Below are positions 33,694-61,090 of a DNA stretch of 64,000 nucleotides, piece after piece. The stretch is taken from IMG/VR virus record IMGVR_UViG_3300044682_000021, positions 1-64,000 of that record. One strand, written 5' to 3'. Each line of letters opens with the position of its first letter. Position 1 is the first letter of the stretch. The position numbers and the translations under genes are program-made. Source of the stretch: a virus. A model generated the notes under the pieces. It was not told where the DNA came from, searched no databases, and saw only the letters and a program-made list of their open reading frames with translations.

Positions 33694-35949
33694 TTAGAGG
33701 TCGTAAATGTTGATCGGCAAATATCCGTCCACCGACCGCGACGGCACTACCATCCCCGGCGACGGCTTGAGGTCCAGCGGCGGCAGCGCATTCGCCCCGG
33801 CGTCGCCCATGAACCGTTTCTTCGACCGCTCCGTCATCGTCTGCTTGCCGCGCACGATCTCGATGGAGATGGCGGAGGCGAAGATCCCGTCGTCGTGCTC
33901 GCCGTCCTCGTGCTCCTGCTTTACCTTGCCGCTGGCCGTGGAGTGGGACTCGAAGTGTTCGCATTCGTGCAGCGTCCACGGGGAGTTGAGCTCGTACCAG
34001 CCGTTCTCGATGGCATGGATGAAGGAGGACATCAGGATAGGGCGGGACCAGCCGAAGGTGTACCATCCGAGTTTGTTCGACTTCGTGGACTTGGCGTTGT
34101 CGTAGCGCGCGAACCGGAATATCCGCTGGTATCCCATCTGGCGCATCTGCACCAGGCACACGTCGCCGACCGACGCGACCACTTCCGGCGCGACCAGCGG
34201 CTGGCGGTGCAAGGGATTGTCCTTCATGGCGGAGGCGTAGTAGGCCGCGATGGCCATGACGAAGGCGAACGCCTGCACGTGGGAGACGTAGCAGGAGCGG
34301 AACTCGGCGGCCTGGAGGTCGGGCATTCCGGGCCGGGGCGCGATCTCGGTGACGACGATGACCGTAGAGTCCTGTCCCTTGCCCTCGCCGGAGTCGATGC
34401 CGATGGAGTAGTCGGCACCGGGCCGCGGCGGGTGCCACACGAAGAACTTGCCTTGCGCGTAGTCCCAGAAGGCATCGGGATTGGACTTGCGCCAGCCTTC
34501 GACGCGGGCGGAGTCGTGGCGCAGGGGGATCAGCTCCCAGTTGTAGGCGTTGCCCTTGGGGGAGCGGAAGATGACGGGGACGCGCGACGTGGGACGACCG
34601 GGATCGCCGTAGTCGATGTCGTCGGGGTCGGGCTCGTAGTCGTCTTCGATGGACTGGCCGGAGATGCCGTAGACGGACACGTCGCGCTTGCGGTCGCGGT
34701 CCACGCGGGCCATCACGTCGTAGCCGAAGACGGATTCGCTGGAGCGCTGGAGGGCTTCGATGTCGTCGCCGGCCATTTCTTGGAAGAACGTGGCTTCGAG
34801 TCCCTTGGCCTTCGCCTCCTCATGCTCCACCTCCCAGAAGTAGACTTGCTCCAGCGGCATCCGACCGTCGGCCCACCATCCCTGCTTCAGCGGCCCTAGC
34901 TCAGGATGTGGCTTACACAGATGCCGCCGGATCATGTCGTGCGTGCGGACGTAGAGTTCCGCCTTCGCCACTTGCTCCTTCGTGTCAGGCAGGAGGTTGG
35001 CGGCGAAGTCCGGCGGGACGGGGTGGGCGCGCAGCCATGCGGCCTTGGGATAGATGTCCAGTCCGGTGAACCACGGCAGGAACTGTGGGCACAGCCGCGC
35101 CTTGCCGAGGGCATAGTTGGCTTTCGAGGAGCGCCAGGTGTCGGGCCACCATCCTTGGTCGCCCTCGCCGGAAGATTCGAGAATACCGAACACGGAAGGG
35201 GATGCGTGGACGGCCTTGAACAGCGCCGCCTCGATCTGCTCGCTGGCGTTTGAGAACGAGGCGCACTCGGAGAGGTGATAGACGGTCGGCGTGGCACCAC
35301 GGGCGATGCCGCTCATCTGGTTGCCGTGCTGCACCGAGACGCCGGAGTTGAGGTAGGCGAATTCCAGCTTGCCCCGGTCGGATTCGACGCGGGCGGTGTA
35401 CTGGGGCCGCAGCCACACCGGAAGCATGTCGTAGGCCATCAGGAGTTTCTTAGCCATCATCAGCGACTTCTGCTGGTCGGCGGAGGCGATGACCGCGTTC
35501 ACGCCGTAGGAGAATACGATGCGGAGCATGATGAGGAGTTCGACGATGGTGGTCATCCCAAGCTGCCGCGCCTTCAGGATCATGATTTCGATGGCTACGT
35601 CGCGGGATTCGAGGTCCGCGATGATGTTGAACAGGATTTGCTGGGCCACACGCGGCACGAACCGCTTGATGACGCCCTCCTCGTCGATCACGAAGCAATA
35701 GCGGGTGAGCGCGTACATAGCGTCCACCATGACGAGGCAGCGTTCGTTGAGTTGCCACTGGACTTCCCACGGCGCGAGGTTGACGCAGCCACAGGGCTGG
35801 CCGTTCTCGTCGTATTGGTACTTGGCGGAGGCGCGCAGGTGCTCCTCGAAGGCGGCGACTTCGTCGATGGTGTGAGGGACGGGAGTGAAGGAGTATACGT
35901 CCTCGACCTCGGTGCGGATGCGGGCGGCGACTTTGGTGGGGTGGTACAT
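33694..35949 (-). CDS. terL: terminase large subunit
   Basis: 751 codons. The ATPase half has a deviant Walker A (KARQLGMTT, residues 126-134, with Met where the usual Lys sits, a variant common in this clade of terminases) and a Walker B-type segment ending in Ser-Glu (TVYHLSECASF). The C-terminal nuclease half carries IGIDSGEGKGQDSTVIV and a late acidic cluster (EDGEHDDGIFA), which fit the RNase H-like active site. It pumps and cuts DNA at the portal. Length is somewhat above typical (500-650) through N-terminal extension. Confidence 0.9.
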   Translation of the reverse strand: MYHPTKVAARIRTEVEDVYSFTPVPHTIDEVAAFEEHLRASAKYQYDENGQPCGCVNLAPWEVQWQLNERCLVMVDAMYALTRYCFVIDEEGVIKRFVPRVAQQILFNIIADLESRDVAIEIMILKARQLGMTTIVELLIMLRIVFSYGVNAVIASADQQKSLMMAKKLLMAYDMLPVWLRPQYTARVESDRGKLEFAYLNSGVSVQHGNQMSGIARGATPTVYHLSECASFSNASEQIEAALFKAVHASPSVFGILESSGEGDQGWWPDTWRSSKANYALGKARLCPQFLPWFTGLDIYPKAAWLRAHPVPPDFAANLLPDTKEQVAKAELYVRTHDMIRRHLCKPHPELGPLKQGWWADGRMPLEQVYFWEVEHEEAKAKGLEATFFQEMAGDDIEALQRSSESVFGYDVMARVDRDRKRDVSVYGISGQSIEDDYEPDPDDIDYGDPGRPTSRVPVIFRSPKGNAYNWELIPLRHDSARVEGWRKSNPDAFWDYAQGKFFVWHPPRPGADYSIGIDSGEGKGQDSTVIVVTEIAPRPGMPDLQAAEFRSCYVSHVQAFAFVMAIAAYYASAMKDNPLHRQPLVAPEVVASVGDVCLVQMRQMGYQRIFRFARYDNAKSTKSNKLGWYTFGWSRPILMSSFIHAIENGWYELNSPWTLHECEHFESHSTASGKVKQEHEDGEHDDGIFASAISIEIVRGKQTMTERSKKRFMGDAGANALPPLDLKPSPGMVVPSRSVDGYLPINIYDL

Positions 35950-53090: not shown

Positions 53091-53282
53091 ATGAATAACA
53101 CCACTCTCAAACCCGCCCCCAAGCACGGCCCGTCGATCCGCATCCGGTTCCGCAACCTAGCCCAGAGGAACGCGCTTCGCCGGGCCGCCCGCCTCCGAGG
53201 GCTGACCCTGAACACTTACGCCATGACCGTGCTGGTGGATGCGGCGCGGGTGGCCCTGAAAGGAGTGGGCGGCAATGGCTAA
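53091..53282 (+). CDS. ribbon-helix-helix-like protein
   Basis: 63 codons, MNNTTLKPAPKHGPSIRIRF, then NLAQRNALRRAARLRGLTLN and TYAMTVLVDAARVALKG. A strand (SIRIRF) followed by two helices is the Arc/CopG/TraY layout. It should bind DNA as a dimer. The last 8 bases overlap the ATPase gene. It may autoregulate the promoter it follows. Confidence 0.65.
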   Translation: MNNTTLKPAPKHGPSIRIRFRNLAQRNALRRAARLRGLTLNTYAMTVLVDAARVALKGVGGNG

Positions 53283-54309
53283 ATCCGGCTGCATCTACGG
53301 GCCAACGTCTTCGTTCAAGACGACCGCTATCGCCCACTTCGCGCACTATATCGCGGAGAAGACGGGCAAAGCGACGCTCCTGTTCAGCGCTGACGGCGGC
53401 GGCTGGGCGCCATGTGAGGAAGAAGTCCGCGCTGGGATGATCCGCCCTTACCGCTGTGACACGGCGAACATTCCTCTTCCAGTGGTTCGCAAGGTGTCGC
53501 AGGGCTACTGGCCGCGCAACCCTGAAGAGACGGATATTGCCAAGGTAGAGTTCCACCGTGCCAACTGGGACGAGATCGGTGGGATAGCGGTCGAGGGATT
53601 CACCTCGATCGGCACCATGTTCATGCGCCACGCAGCGGACAAGAACCTGAAAACGGGCGAGGAGGGAACGTCGAAGTTCTACCAGCCTATCAACATCGCA
53701 GGCAACGTCGAGCAGGAAGTGTTTGCTGGTTCTTCGAAAGGGCACTACAATTTTGTGCAAAATCAACTCTTCGGCATGACCATGAATTTCACGTCCCTGC
53801 CTGTCGAGTACGTCCTGTTCACGGGACTGGAGAAAAAGGGCGAGGATGACGACCGCTCGACAGTGTATGGCGTCAGCGTCCCTGGTAAGGCGATCACCAA
53901 CCAGATCCCGACGTGGGTGGGTGATTTAATCCACGCGCAGGACTTCGCGGTGCCGCGAAAGGTACGGGTTCCGCCACCGGGTAAGATCGCAGCGCAGTGC
54001 AAACCGGAGGAGCTGATAGAGACGGACATTGTGGACACCGTGTGCCGTTACTACTTCAAGAAGCATCCAGACCCGTCGAGTGGGATCATGTTCCCCGCCA
54101 AGCCACGCGTGACTCACGGCGCGGTCAGGGAGTTGGAGAAACGCTATCCTGGTGGATACTTTGAGCCTTCTACAGAATCGGGATTCGACGACTACCTGCG
54201 CGTGATCGACGAACTTAGCGCCGGACGGGCGGATTCGATGAAGGACTGGCGTGCCAAGGCTGACGCCAAGCTGGGGCGTGGGGTGGCGGGAGTAGCAACA
54301 CCAAAATGA
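53275..54309 (+). CDS. RecA-fold ATPase (Sak4-like)
   Basis: 344 codons. Walker A is YGPTSSFKTT (Gly9 to Thr16, Lys15). A strand-acidic segment (GGIAVEGFTSIGTMF) and a Walker B-like region (YVLFTGLEKKGEDDDRSTVY) follow. Phage Sak4-type single-strand annealing or recombinase loaders share this size and simple core. It works with the downstream ssDNA-binding candidate and helicase. Located one gene after the promoter at 53053. Confidence 0.7.
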   Translation: MAKSGCIYGPTSSFKTTAIAHFAHYIAEKTGKATLLFSADGGGWAPCEEEVRAGMIRPYRCDTANIPLPVVRKVSQGYWPRNPEETDIAKVEFHRANWDEIGGIAVEGFTSIGTMFMRHAADKNLKTGEEGTSKFYQPINIAGNVEQEVFAGSSKGHYNFVQNQLFGMTMNFTSLPVEYVLFTGLEKKGEDDDRSTVYGVSVPGKAITNQIPTWVGDLIHAQDFAVPRKVRVPPPGKIAAQCKPEELIETDIVDTVCRYYFKKHPDPSSGIMFPAKPRVTHGAVRELEKRYPGGYFEPSTESGFDDYLRVIDELSAGRADSMKDWRAKADAKLGRGVAGVATPK

Positions 54310-55949: not shown

Positions 55950-57452
55950 ATGCCGCATGGATTCCCTATCGACGCTGCTGTGCCCGATTCACCACGTCCC
56001 CCTGACGCTGCGAACGCTGGTACTGGGATCGTTCGGCCTGCTGCCGGAGGACCGACGCCGCTACGAATGGTGGCAATGCCTGACGGAGATACCGAACGTG
56101 TCGCCGCAGGCACAGAAGCCGTCGAGGAGGTGCCAATACTGCTTGCCGAGGACGGCGGCGAGTCCGCCGGCATTCCCGGCGAATCTGGCGGTGACACTGC
56201 ATTCCCATGTGAGTTCATTTGCGGAGTTGCAGGGAGCGGCAAAACCCACACCGTCCGCGAAGCCATCGTCGCTGATCCATCGTGGGGCCTCCTCTGTGCT
56301 ACGACCGGGATCGCGGCCATCAACCTCGGGGCGGTGACCCTGAACTCTACGCTTGGCTACTTCGACACCGACAGCCTCCGCGACGCCTACCTATCCGGCC
56401 AACTGGTACGCAAGCTCAAGGCCATCCGCGAGGACTACCGCCGACTGGCGATCGACGAAGTGTCGATGATGGACGGCGACCAGCTCGGCATCCTGGTCCG
56501 CGCCACGCGGGTGGCCAACTCGTTCAAGTCCGCCACGGGCGCGCCGCCCTTGGGATTGTGCCTCGTGGGCGACTTCGCCCAGTTGCCGCCCGTCCGCGCC
56601 CGATGGGCGTTCGAGTCCGACGAATGGCGGCGCTTCGATGAGCATACTACCCGGCTCACGAAGGTGTGGCGGCAGGGGCTGGGGCCGTTCCTCGACGCGC
56701 TCAACTTTGCCCGCAGTGGGGACGGTGGCCAAGCCGCCGCGTTGTTGTCCGAGTCCGGCCTTGAATGGCACACTGGCTTGGACATCAACTTTGATGGCAC
56801 AACCATCGTCCCCAAGAACGACGCCGTGGACCGATATAACGGGATGGCCCTCGACCGCCTGCCGGGGCCGACGTTCACTCTCGCTTCCCGCCGCTGGGGC
56901 AAGCAGCGCGGCGACTGGAAGCAGGTGCCGGAGGGGGTCAAGTTGAAGCGCGGGGCCTATGTCATGCTGCTGGCGAACGCCTACGACGATGAGGGGCGTA
57001 TGGAGTACGCGAACGGGGATTGCGGGCACGTAATCGAGCAGACGCCAGGAGGATTGTGTGTGGAACTCGTTCGTAATGGTGCGGTCGTGGGAGTCGAGCG
57101 CGTCTGCCGCGACGTGGGCCACAAGGGCAAGCCCACCGGCTGGGACGGCGTAACCGGACACGGCGAGTGGCTCCCGCGACCGCACTGGATGCCCGACAAG
57201 CGGCGCTACGTCGAGGGCCAGTGCGAGTTCTTCCCGGTGCGACTGGCGTATGCGAGCACGGTACACAAGTCGCAAGGGCTGAGTTTGGATCGCCTCCAAG
57301 TCGATGTGCGGGACCATTTCTTCTCCAGTTACGGGATGATCTATGTTGCGATGTCACGGGCCAGAACGTTGGAGGGACTGCGGATCGTGGGGCAGAAGGA
57401 ACGATTTATAACTCAGTGTAAATGTGATCCGAGGGTACGACGATGGCTGTAG
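55950..57452 (+). CDS. SF1B DNA helicase (Pif1/RecD-like)
   Basis: 500 codons from ATG at 55950 with AGGAG upstream. After a 90-residue Pro/Ala/Gly-rich leader: Walker A ICGVAGSGKTHTVRE, Walker B RLAIDEVSMMDGDQLG, motif III LVGDFAQLPPVRARW, and motifs V/VI YASTVHKSQGLSLDR and YVAMSRARTLEGLR. It uses ATP to move 5'-3' on DNA and should be the replicative or recombination helicase of the phage. Genes on both sides belong to the same transcript. Confidence 0.9.
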   Translation: MPHGFPIDAAVPDSPRPPDAANAGTGIVRPAAGGPTPLRMVAMPDGDTERVAAGTEAVEEVPILLAEDGGESAGIPGESGGDTAFPCEFICGVAGSGKTHTVREAIVADPSWGLLCATTGIAAINLGAVTLNSTLGYFDTDSLRDAYLSGQLVRKLKAIREDYRRLAIDEVSMMDGDQLGILVRATRVANSFKSATGAPPLGLCLVGDFAQLPPVRARWAFESDEWRRFDEHTTRLTKVWRQGLGPFLDALNFARSGDGGQAAALLSESGLEWHTGLDINFDGTTIVPKNDAVDRYNGMALDRLPGPTFTLASRRWGKQRGDWKQVPEGVKLKRGAYVMLLANAYDDEGRMEYANGDCGHVIEQTPGGLCVELVRNGAVVGVERVCRDVGHKGKPTGWDGVTGHGEWLPRPHWMPDKRRYVEGQCEFFPVRLAYASTVHKSQGLSLDRLQVDVRDHFFSSYGMIYVAMSRARTLEGLRIVGQKERFITQCKCDPRVRRWL

Positions 57453-57649
57453 ACGACAGCAGCAAGCCGCCCGTGATAATGACCGAGTGGGGCCCGGTAA
57501 CCGAGTCCGCGCGCAAGCAAGCGGCGTTGAACATCGCCCGCAACCCTGCGCTGCGCGACCGCATGTTCGCCCAGTTCGGCGAGGCCAAGGTGCGGGCGCA
57601 GTACCCGGAAGCGTTTGAGGAGGGCGAGAGCGATGCCAAGGCCGATTGA
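57443..57649 (+). CDS. small hypothetical protein
   Basis: 68 codons overlapping the helicase end by 10 bases: MAVDDSSKPPVIMTEWGPVT, SARKQAALNIARNPALRDRM, acidic C-terminus. Mostly helical; possible adaptor. No family known. Confidence 0.55.
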   Translation: MAVDDSSKPPVIMTEWGPVTESARKQAALNIARNPALRDRMFAQFGEAKVRAQYPEAFEEGESDAKAD

Positions 57650-57914
57650 AAAGGTGGACGTGCCTGTCGGCTCCGTGGAGTACAAGATCGTCTACATCGA
57701 CAAGCTGTTGGTGTCGGCGGGATTTGCCGCCTCTCGCTCCGAGGCCATGCGGCTGGTCAAGGCGGGCGCGGTGACGATCAAGGACGGCGATCTGGGGTGG
57801 GAGGGGCGCGACGTGTGGGGTTGGGGACCGCCGAACCAAGCGTTGATGCCGTTCGGCAGGGTGTTCCAGATGCGGGTGGGAAGGATGCACAAGGGGGTAA
57901 GGATTCGTGCGTAG
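57633..57914 (+). CDS. S4-domain RNA-binding-like protein
   Basis: 93 codons from ATG at 57633 with GGAGGG 8 bases upstream. Residues about 18-50 match the S4 motif (DKLLVSAGFAASRSEAMRLV, KAGAVTIKDGD) found in S4 ribosomal protein, tyrosyl-tRNA synthetase and pseudouridine synthases. The rest is a short tail. A free S4 module could bind structured RNA, such as the noncoding RNA candidate upstream or a tRNA. Confidence 0.65.
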   Translation: MPRPIEKVDVPVGSVEYKIVYIDKLLVSAGFAASRSEAMRLVKAGAVTIKDGDLGWEGRDVWGWGPPNQALMPFGRVFQMRVGRMHKGVRIRA

Positions 57915-57935: not shown

Positions 57936-58142
57936 ATGGCCTATCACACACTAACGACTGAAAGCGGCGGCGACGAGCGCTCGCGTATTGAGGAGGCACA
58001 CACTATCGTGCGTCTGCTTGAGGAAGTGACCGAGGAGATGACGCCGAAGGAGCGCGAGTTCGTCGAACAGATGGCGGACTGCGACTACTGCACCACGAAG
58101 CAGGTGTTCTGGCTGCGTGACATCAAGGATAAGTATCTATGA
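57936..58142 (+). CDS. small protein coupled to polymerase
   Basis: 68 codons with GGAGG upstream. MAYHTLTTESGGDERSRIEE then a helical body and DCDYCTTKQVFWLRDIKDKY. Its TGA overlaps the polymerase ATG (ATGA), so translation is coupled. A CxxC pair may bind metal. Perhaps a polymerase accessory. Confidence 0.6.
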   Translation: MAYHTLTTESGGDERSRIEEAHTIVRLLEEVTEEMTPKEREFVEQMADCDYCTTKQVFWLRDIKDKYL

Positions 58143-61090
58143 GAGCCAAGCCTTCCAGTTGCGACGGCTGCCAGTTGCAGCACCGAGGCACCGACTTCTC
58201 TCAGGTCGAGGGGACCGGATCGCTCGGCGTAATGATCGTGGCGGAAGCGAGTGGCGAGATGGAAGCCCGCGACCAACTGCCGCTGCGTCCCTACGCCCCC
58301 GCCGGGTCGCTGCTGGAGCGGACATTCCGACGGATAGGTTACTCGCGGCAACAATTCTCACTGACCAACACCCTCCGCTGCCGCCCGCCGAATAATTGGC
58401 TCTCGGGCGCGCCGTGGGAGTTCTCCGCCCTCAACCATTGCCGCCCCAACCTCGACGCCGCCATCGGCGACCGCCGGCCGCGCGCGATCCTGGCGCTGGG
58501 TGACACCGCGCTGCGGGAACTGACGGGGGAGGCAGGGGAGGCGAGGGGCGTGTCGCATCTGGCGGGGTACGTGTTGCCGACTACCTCCGTGCGTGAGCCT
58601 TGCACGAACTGTATCAGCTACGAATCGGAAATGAAGGACGCATCTTGCAGCGCGTGTCGCGGGAGTGGATTAGTGCAGAATGGGGGGACGGGCAGCATCC
58701 CCGTGATCCCCACCTTCCACCCCGCGTTCATCCGCCGCGGCAAGGCATCCCTGCAAGGCTTGTTCGCCCGCAACCTGCAACGCGCGGTGAACGTGGCAGC
58801 GGGGCGGGACAGAGAGTGGGAGTGGGACTTAGAGGAGGCACAACGCAATGGACGCATCAGATATCAGGTACATCCTAGCCTTGACGAGGCGCGATCATTT
58901 GTTACGCGAGTTAGAGGAAATTCGGGATTCACTCTCAGTTACGACATCGAGACTTTCGAGAGCGCGAGTCTTGATGAGGACGCTAGAGACGGATTTACTG
59001 ATACTAGAATCCGGCTCATCCAGTTCTCAGTCGAAGGAGGCTCTGGAATCGCTCTACCTTGGGACGGCGATTATCGAAGAGTTGCTCAAGAGCTACTCCT
59101 CCTCCCAAACACTAAATGCGGCCACAACCTCTGGCTCTTCGACAACCGCGTCCTCGAAGCCTGCGGGGCCCGCGAGGGACTAGACCTCCGCCCCCGCGGC
59201 CCGATCCACGACACCCTCGCCATGTTCCACCACTGGCAGCCGGACCTCCCGGCCCACCTCCAGTTCGCGGCACAGTTCGTGTCGTTCCCGTTCCCGTGGA
59301 AGCACCTGGCGGCGACGGATCTGGAATTCTACGGCTGCGTGGACGTGGATGCGACGCTGCGGCTGTACACGTTCTTACGGGCACAATTAGAAAGGGATGG
59401 TATATGGGACGACCAAAGCTACATGAACACACTTGCCCCTTCTGTAAGCAGCCTTGGACACACAACAACAGCGCATGTACCGACGGAGAGTATCGAGCCT
59501 GCCGATTCTGCAAAGACGCTTATCACCTACAAGAGCGTTCGAGGGTACGTCGGGCAAGTGGCTGAAGTGAGGCCGATCCTCGCGGCGATGGAACGCCGTG
59601 GATTGCCAGTGGACGACGCCGAGCGGCTGAAGCTGGACGGGGAGTTTGACTTGGCGCAACAGGAACTCGACGCCCAGTTGCAGGCCCGTGTCCCTGCCGA
59701 GGTGCTGGGACTGGAGCCGCGACGGGGGAAGAAAGGGAACTATGACTATGGCTACCTTAAAACGCCGAAAGATACTGACGGTCTCGTATTGCGGACCTTT
59801 ACCATCGCCGCGATTGATGAAAGCACTCAGGAGCCTTGCACGCGCAGCGTCGAACGCTATTGCCGCATCGTTCCATTCAACGCCAATTCAGGTCAGCAGT
59901 TGCTGCGGTACATGGACGCAAGAAAGCATAAAAGGCCGAAGTCACGTGAGCAAGACGACGAGGGGAACGACAAAGACACGACAGGCAAGAAAGAGTTAGT
60001 GCGGCTGGCTCATCGGAGCGGCGACGACTTCTACTTGAAGGTGATCGAGTACCGGGAACTCAGCAAGATGCGCGGGACGTATATCGAGGGATTCGTGCCA
60101 CACACGGACGGTCGCGTCCACACGACGTTCACGTTCGACACTGGCATCGGCCAACTATCGTCGCGTAATCCCAACATCCAGAATTATCCGAAGCATGGGC
60201 GACTGGCGAAAGCGGTACGCAAGATGATCGCGGCCAAGCCAGGCCATGTCCTCACCGAATGGGATTATAAGTCCTGCCACGTTCTCACTCTCGGCTTCCT
60301 CGCAGAAGACGCCAATTACATCCGTTGCGCCCGCATCGACATGCACTCCATTGTCACGGGGCATAAGCTCGGCCTGTGGCACGCCATCCAACTCCTGCGC
60401 GACTACGATGACGCGGCCATCCGCGCCAAGTGCAAATGGCTGAAGTCGAACGCCGAGTGGAAGCACATCCGCGACGCCCGCATGAAGCACGCCATCCTCG
60501 GCATCGGCAACGGCCTGAAGGCGCGCGGGCTGTACGAGAAGCACATGGAGGACTTCTCGTCGCAGAAGGAGGCGCAGTCGTTCCTCGATGTGGTGGAGGA
60601 ACTGTTCCCCAAAGTGTTCGCGTGGCACAAGATGGTGCAGCAGAAGGCCCATGACCAGCAATGGCTGAAGACACAGTACGGCCACATGCGGCGGTTCTAC
60701 GAAGTGTTCGTGTGGAACTACAAGAAGGCTGCGTATGGCCACGGCGATCAGGCGGAGGAGGCTATCTCCTACTGGCTGTCCAACATCGCGTTCGGTTACA
60801 TCCGCGAGCACATGAAGCTCTTGGAGGCGGCAGGACTCAACGAGAAGTACGGCCTGTGCAACAACGTCCACGACTCGCTGATGTTCCACTTCCCTGCCGC
60901 CATGCTGGACGAGCACGTGCGGGAGGTATACCCGCTGCTGGTCACGCCGTCGAAGGTGCTCACCCACCCGACGATATGCCCCGAGGGGCTGTGGATCGAC
61001 GCGGAGGCGAACGCGGGGCCGAACTGGGCGGAGATGGAGGAAGTGGCGATACCAAAGGAGGCTCACCTTGAAGCTACGCCAGTATCGTAA
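58139..61090 (+). CDS. uracil-DNA glycosylase / 3'-5' exonuclease / family A DNA polymerase fusion
   Basis: 983 codons. Residues 1-225 match family 4 UDG: Cys8, Cys11, Cys81 and Cys101 (CxxC ... CRPPNN ... C) as 4Fe-4S ligands, IVAEASGEMEA (motif 1) and TFHPAFIRRG (motif 2). A zinc knuckle (CTNC ... CSAC) is inserted near residue 160. DnaQ-type exonuclease: SYDIETFES (D269, E271), CGHNLWLFDNR and VDVDATLRLY (D404). Polymerase: motif A EWDYKSCHVL (D709), motif B KHAILGIGNG (K783), motif C NNVHDSLMFH (H911-D912-S913). A fused repair-polymerase could stall or remove uracil ahead of copying. UDG plus PolA in one chain is unusual. Confidence 0.85.
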   Translation: MRAKPSSCDGCQLQHRGTDFSQVEGTGSLGVMIVAEASGEMEARDQLPLRPYAPAGSLLERTFRRIGYSRQQFSLTNTLRCRPPNNWLSGAPWEFSALNHCRPNLDAAIGDRRPRAILALGDTALRELTGEAGEARGVSHLAGYVLPTTSVREPCTNCISYESEMKDASCSACRGSGLVQNGGTGSIPVIPTFHPAFIRRGKASLQGLFARNLQRAVNVAAGRDREWEWDLEEAQRNGRIRYQVHPSLDEARSFVTRVRGNSGFTLSYDIETFESASLDEDARDGFTDTRIRLIQFSVEGGSGIALPWDGDYRRVAQELLLLPNTKCGHNLWLFDNRVLEACGAREGLDLRPRGPIHDTLAMFHHWQPDLPAHLQFAAQFVSFPFPWKHLAATDLEFYGCVDVDATLRLYTFLRAQLERDGIWDDQSYMNTLAPSVSSLGHTTTAHVPTESIEPADSAKTLITYKSVRGYVGQVAEVRPILAAMERRGLPVDDAERLKLDGEFDLAQQELDAQLQARVPAEVLGLEPRRGKKGNYDYGYLKTPKDTDGLVLRTFTIAAIDESTQEPCTRSVERYCRIVPFNANSGQQLLRYMDARKHKRPKSREQDDEGNDKDTTGKKELVRLAHRSGDDFYLKVIEYRELSKMRGTYIEGFVPHTDGRVHTTFTFDTGIGQLSSRNPNIQNYPKHGRLAKAVRKMIAAKPGHVLTEWDYKSCHVLTLGFLAEDANYIRCARIDMHSIVTGHKLGLWHAIQLLRDYDDAAIRAKCKWLKSNAEWKHIRDARMKHAILGIGNGLKARGLYEKHMEDFSSQKEAQSFLDVVEELFPKVFAWHKMVQQKAHDQQWLKTQYGHMRRFYEVFVWNYKKAAYGHGDQAEEAISYWLSNIAFGYIREHMKLLEAAGLNEKYGLCNNVHDSLMFHFPAAMLDEHVREVYPLLVTPSKVLTHPTICPEGLWIDAEANAGPNWAEMEEVAIPKEAHLEATPVS

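Follow-up and report, generated by a model that had tools for sequence, protein, structure and literature searches.

What does a uracil-DNA glycosylase (UDG) do at the front of a phage DNA polymerase? The question is raised by a 64,000-nucleotide stretch of IMG/VR virus record IMGVR_UViG_3300044682_000021 (here called the window; the record has 64,095 bases), which encodes a single 983-residue chain at positions 58139-61090 of the + strand, the strand of all features of this gene given below. The start ATG shares an ATGA with the stop of the open reading frame (ORF) just upstream. The ORF, its Pfam matches and its motifs give the order UDG, 3′-5′ exonuclease, family A DNA polymerase (PolA) (58139..61090), which is that of fusions of the SPO1/PaBG kind. 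Our preferred answer, which we hold at about even confidence, is that the chain couples an active iron-sulfur (Fe-S)-type UDG to the replicative family A polymerase of an environmental tailed phage.

The family-4-type UDG domain comprises residues 1-222 (58139..58804). Pfam UDG PF03167 matched residues 28-204 (E 4.7e-15; 56.3 bits, above the cut-off of 24.3), and DNA_pol_A PF00476 matched residues 574-935 (E 4.1e-29; 102.1 bits, cut-off 34.3). The Pfam search returned no exonuclease match in the window protein; motif alignment placed exonuclease motifs I to III at YDIET (268-272), GHNLWLFDN (328-336) and YGCVDVD (398-404) (58940..59350), with D269/E271, D335 and Y398/D402 kept across the window lineage. 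Alignment also located polymerase motif A, DYKSCH, with D709 (60263..60280), motif B, RMKHAILGIGNG, with K783 (60479..60514), and motif C, VHDSLMF, with D912 (60866..60886). These three residues and a Klenow-like fold identify a family A polymerase: residues 236-967 of the full-length model aligned to Klenow 1kln with Z 25.4 and a root mean square deviation (rmsd) of 3.7 over 529 positions. The polymerase part also filled the Foldseek and VIA-align lists for that model. The first-pass annotation, made from the letters alone, had proposed a 983-residue UDG-exonuclease-PolA chain with Fe-S cysteines and all of these motifs, and profiles, alignment and structure prediction confirm it. Chance or an annotation artefact was ruled out, as 24 further IMG/VR contigs encode the same chain.

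The UDG part has the four Fe-S cysteines, the motif 1 Glu, the motif 2 HP and the UDG alpha/beta fold of family 4. The first ligand pair, C8-x-x-C11 (58160..58171), is invariant in 22/22 lineage rows covering the UDG and in 23/23 rows of UDG alignment A2. The third ligand, C81, lies between N77 and N86 in LTNTLRCRPPNN (58361..58396), and the fourth, C101, in an NHC (58433..58441); both were assigned from the alignments, and the position equivalent to C81 carries an intein-like insert in one relative, L018. Motif 1, AEASGEMEA (58241..58267), contains E36, which is invariant in alignments A1 and A2, and motif 2, FHPAF (58715..58729), contains the HP at 194-195, with H194 invariant in A2. All six residues (C8, C11, C81, C101, E36 and H194) are unchanged in the 22 lineage rows; P195 is replaced by Thr in L022. 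The cysteines align with those of family 4 sequences and with those of a stand-alone UDG encoded on contig L059.

Structure prediction of the N-terminal part, proposed as a check in the first-pass annotation, gave the UDG fold. The UDG-only model, based on the 23 sequences of A2, which include one bacterial UDG that stands alone, had a predicted local distance difference test score (pLDDT) of 88.2 and a predicted template modeling score (pTM) of 0.84. Its best Foldseek match in the PDB was the Thermotoga maritima UDG 1l9g (E 1.5e-13, TMt 0.80, rmsd 2.4), and solved 4Fe-4S family 4 UDGs matched over model residues 2-223. VIA-align 2 gave Z 24.0 with 1vk2 (rmsd 2.1, 177 aligned), Z 22.9 with 1ui0 (rmsd 2.2, 176 aligned) and Z 22.5 with the UdgX structure 6ail (rmsd 2.0, 175 aligned). 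Because these scores are close, fold alone cannot separate family 4 from UdgX. UdgX has an extra loop that carries the covalently reacting His109. In an alignment to 8iir, the window protein lacked this longer loop, which precedes the fourth cysteine, and had RPPNNWLSGAPWEF in its place; we therefore rejected a UdgX identity. The stand-alone family 4 UDGs of T. maritima (1l9g/1vk2), T. thermophilus (1ui0) and S. tokodaii (4zbx) share the fold, the Fe-S cysteines, the Glu and the HP with the window domain; unlike it, they are unfused, read GExPGE rather than AEASGE in motif 1 and have no knuckle loop.

This knuckle, an extra CxxC...CxxC (C155, C158, C170 and C173; 58601..58657), had been described as an insertion inside the UDG part. 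It is present in the window as described, but it does not belong to the core of the domain. The loop that holds it (residues 147-185) is variable, with 58% gaps and a mean identity of 0.208 among 17 sequences. Four loop cysteines occur in just 4 of the 22 rows (the window, L002, L004 and L013), three occur in L009, and the remaining 17 rows have none; the exact spacing is found only in the window and L013. Hence, the knuckle cannot be essential to a function shared by the lineage. It may bind metal in those members that have it.

The scans of IMG/VR found 22 loci encoding the same chain at 47-74% identity, and a second scan added two contigs, L046 and L057; L019 and L058 are the two ends of one contig. 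Over the 136 pairs of 17 sequences, the UDG core had the highest mean pairwise identity, 0.710, followed by the exonuclease with 0.687 and the polymerase with 0.622. In 8/8 pairs, the Nei-Gojobori ratio of nonsynonymous to synonymous substitution (dN/dS) of the UDG was 0.056-0.193; in several of these pairs, synonymous sites were close to saturated. The UDG is thus under purifying selection. In a tree built from 21 UDG rows, of which 17 were fused and 4 stand-alone, the window lineage formed a clade with support 99/99, and the stand-alone rows lay on one side of a branch with support 96/91. One of these four rows, MW462191, is on a record with bacterial-looking neighbors, and the tree is insufficient for deciding between one fusion and several.

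Inteins prefer functional sites. The insert in L018 is 271 residues long (L018:8241-9053), starts with Cys, ends with His-Asn and directly precedes the equivalent of C81; Pfam Intein_splicing matched it with E 1.3e-7 and 32.0 bits, just below the cut-off of 35.8. A 269-residue insert in L014 (L014:7567-8373) stands before the equivalent of polymerase residue S675, ahead of the SRNPN motif, and gave weak matches to Intein_splicing and Hint_2 (E 0.0011 each, both below the cut-offs). Separately, the vir526-type polymerase at L066:3989-7420 has about 270 extra residues between two blast segments, one ending at 608 and the next starting at 878, and perhaps contains another intein. The chain is also divided in other ways. 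In L022 (7722-12532), two intervening ORFs part the UDG-exonuclease ORF from that of the polymerase, and in ctLwi270 the polymerase ORF is likewise separate from a UDG-exonuclease ORF. Since both genes are split in this way, the UDG evidently remains with the exonuclease when the polymerase is detached.

The first-pass annotation implied that a UDG-PolA fusion is new, which overstates the case, and the search that it proposed for other such fusions found SPO1, Shbh1, the PaBG group, PDB entry 9qhs and others. Publications are cited here by PMC number from excerpts. A UDG on family A polymerases is stated for PaBG and its group (PMC7412058): like the window protein, PaBG gp205 and the “Lupandier” group, in all 11 members, have an N-terminal UDG, a 3′-5′ exonuclease and PolA in one chain. 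The family A polymerases of SPO1 (gp31) and Shbh1 likewise have a UDG-like domain at the N terminus (PMC5135824). The UDG described in PMC2147016 is a separate, unfused gene. The phiLo family A polymerase 9qhs (released 2026-03-25) matched the UDG model over its residues 34-205 (Z 15.2, rmsd 2.5, 154 aligned) and matched profile A2 in sequence (E 2.2e-15), beginning past the N-terminal CxxC; at 1142 residues, it is a longer chain than that of the window. The matches to the UDG model in BFVD include many proteins whose names identify them as polymerases of phages, for example, those of SP-15, Porthos, Motura, Colly_1 and RHph_Y65. In the literature searched, we found neither biochemistry of a UDG-PolA fusion nor a publication on 9qhs.

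Three further phage proteins, from ctfzr933 (MW202455), vir526 (BK063670) and ctLwi270 (MW202554), resemble that of the window in having intact cysteines, Glu and HP in a UDG joined to an exonuclease, which in ctfzr933 and vir526 is joined to the polymerase as well. They differ from it in their ordinary Glu gate and have only ~21-31% identity to it. Elsewhere, alignment showed losses of increasing extent. PaBG lacks the Fe-S cysteine pattern and the HP and has Asp for the motif 1 Glu; its polymerase, unlike that of the window, has the gate Glu. SPO1, which was read in its first exon only (two stops follow), lacks the Fe-S cysteines and retains Glu and HP, as does Mel-JY34, whose cysteines are also lost. 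LysYB1 keeps cysteines and HP with Asp for Glu; SM1, for which the record lists both Pfam domains, keeps the cysteines with Asp for Glu and no HP. In ctVRi840, Gln replaces the Glu and the CxxC is missing. The UDG of L061 (3998-6229) is degenerate, with cysteines, motif 1 and HP changed, despite 68% chain identity to ctfzr933. We disregarded the rows of L034 and L035 in this alignment, as they represent the longest ORFs and not the matched UDGs. We concluded that the architecture was known already and that the combination of an intact Fe-S-type UDG, an altered polymerase pocket and a sporadic knuckle is a distinct variant.

The persistence of UDG domains lacking catalytic or Fe-S residues on the polymerases of PaBG, SM1, ctVRi840 and L061 suggests a different role, in which the domain mainly holds on to DNA as a clamp and so makes the polymerase more processive, with excision secondary or absent. 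There is a precedent in vaccinia virus, whose D4 UDG forms a processivity factor with A20 (PMC5682278), and the suggestion of processivity is repeated for this domain in the Shbh1 publication (PMC5135824). A clamp explains the decayed UDGs better than an active glycosylase does, and it may hold alongside one. However, the invariance of the Fe-S cysteines, E36 and H194 in the window lineage is more than a passive clamp needs, and the split ORFs of L022 and ctLwi270 indicate that covalent tethering is not always kept. As the main role of the window domain, a clamp is possible but on balance unlikely.

We favor an active glycosylase because this lineage strictly retains catalytic and cluster residues that other fusions have been free to lose; the placement of the L018 insert exactly at C81, the high identity and low dN/dS of the UDG core and domain, and the match of the model to family 4 UDGs support the same reading. 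So does the finding that PF03167 matched at one locus per record in 20/20 family records searched (of 25 known), within the polymerase, with one match interrupted by the intein; no second UDG of that superfamily was seen. An Fe-S cluster would assemble on the four cysteines, and the UDG, at the N-terminal place that the 5′ nuclease domain has in bacterial Pol I, would act at or near the fork, excising uracil from the DNA of the phage. The uracil would come from cytosine deamination or from misused dUTP, and a host apurinic/apyrimidinic (AP) endonuclease would complete the repair together with ligase and the same polymerase.

Several observations weigh against an active glycosylase. Motif 1 of the window, AEASGE, departs from the usual GE(A/G)PGE. 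The NCBIfam model UDG_fam4 matched residues 8-149 (E 7.4e-19) with 68.1 bits, short of its curated whole-protein cut-off of 125.3; hence, by that model the domain does not count as a member of family 4, and we call it family-4-type. The dN/dS of the polymerase was below that of the UDG in 5/8 pairs. The architecture does not depend on glycosylase chemistry, because PaBG, SM1, ctVRi840 and L061 keep the domain minus parts of the catalytic site. Finally, we ran profile searches on 20 of the 25 known family records (all except L004, L010, L014, L020 and L046), whose completeness is unknown. None of the 20 had a match to dUTPase PF00692, AP endonuclease PF01261 or Exo_endo_phos PF03372, and none had one to thymidylate synthase PF00303 or Thy1 PF02511. 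Since these records showed no other uracil-handling gene, AP sites would fall to the host.

Archaeal family B polymerases stall at template uracil by read-ahead recognition. The UDG of the window could likewise be a sensor that binds uracil in the template and halts the polymerase without excision; consistent with this, it adjoins the exonuclease and polymerase within a single chain and retains the conserved UDG residues. However, with its catalytic-type residues intact, the domain would be expected to excise uracil and not just to bind it, and the full-length model (pLDDT 68.4, pTM 0.53) is too weak to set the UDG against the template. We consider a sensor without excision doubtful. The functions proposed in the first-pass annotation, guarding against deamination or rejecting uracil-containing templates, are plausible as readings of the sequence.

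A second departure lies in the nucleotide pocket of the polymerase. Glu710 and Tyr766 (Klenow numbering) are the usual nucleotide-selection residues of family A, typical rather than defining, with Glu710 as the sugar gate and Tyr766 as its partner. The window lineage has neither. The E710 position is His in 23/23 lineage rows (H714 in the window), the F762 position is Leu in 23/23 (L787), and the Y766 position is Asn in 18 and Phe in 5 (N791). This comparison covered L018 by the part after its intein only; L014, L020 and the L022 ORF with the UDG were left out, as they carry the insert or do not contain the region. Among 18 other phage PolAs, taken from tblastn matches and earlier retrieved sequences and hence not a random sample, the E710 position was Glu in 17 and Asp in 1; the F762 position was Phe in 13, Tyr in 3, Gly in 1 and His in 1; and the Y766 position was Tyr in 17 and Phe in 1, the last being probably misaligned, as EpM_ZHS probably is at motif B. 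The His and Leu of the lineage were thus absent at those positions from all 18. Leu at 762 is described as common among viral PolAs and is linked to slower, perhaps temperate replication (PMC9069017, excerpt).

The rebuilt pocket, with His, Leu and Asn or Phe in place of Glu, Phe and Tyr, would fit a replication-coupled base-excision polymerase, in which a single chain finds and excises uracil while copying, and surveillance and nucleotide selection have co-evolved, for example, for high dUTP or a nonstandard nucleotide. We regard this extension as improbable. The same three changes at nucleotide-selecting positions might instead point to an unusual pyrimidine in phage DNA, the use of which the UDG would guard, unless it acts on uracil-bearing host DNA. 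SPO1 DNA contains hydroxymethyluracil, and thymidylate synthase or hydroxymethylase genes lie near the UDG-polymerases of SPO1, Lysinibacillus phage LysYB1 and ctfzr933. However, the SPO1 UDG lost the Fe-S cysteines that the window UDG kept, and the thymidylate synthase families had no match in the 20 window-family records, on which ground we also rejected a hypermodified-base context. This last reading is very unlikely.

Just upstream of the fusion lies the gene of a small protein with an S4 RNA-binding domain (57633-57914; PF01479, E 4e-6), and other genes around it encode a PIF1/Dda-like helicase (56067-57452) and a Sak4-like ATPase (53275-54309; PHROG, E 2.1e-6). Farther away, at 33694-35949, the terminase large subunit was matched by PHROG in scattered stretches over 751 residues and might hold an insert. 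A prophage or host link was rejected: a scan of genome contigs gave one match, to the stand-alone UDG of a Clostridiaceae metagenome-assembled genome, and tyrosine integrase PF00589 was found in none of the 20 family records.

In the literature that we found (excerpts of PMC7412058 and PMC5135824), the role of the UDG domain on phage family A polymerases is given as a suggestion. The window lineage is an intact version of the fusion with many natural relatives, in contrast to the decayed versions of PaBG, SM1 and SPO1, and makes the question of repair enzyme or clamp testable. Its unusual polymerase pocket is a separate, second lead, on nucleotide selection.

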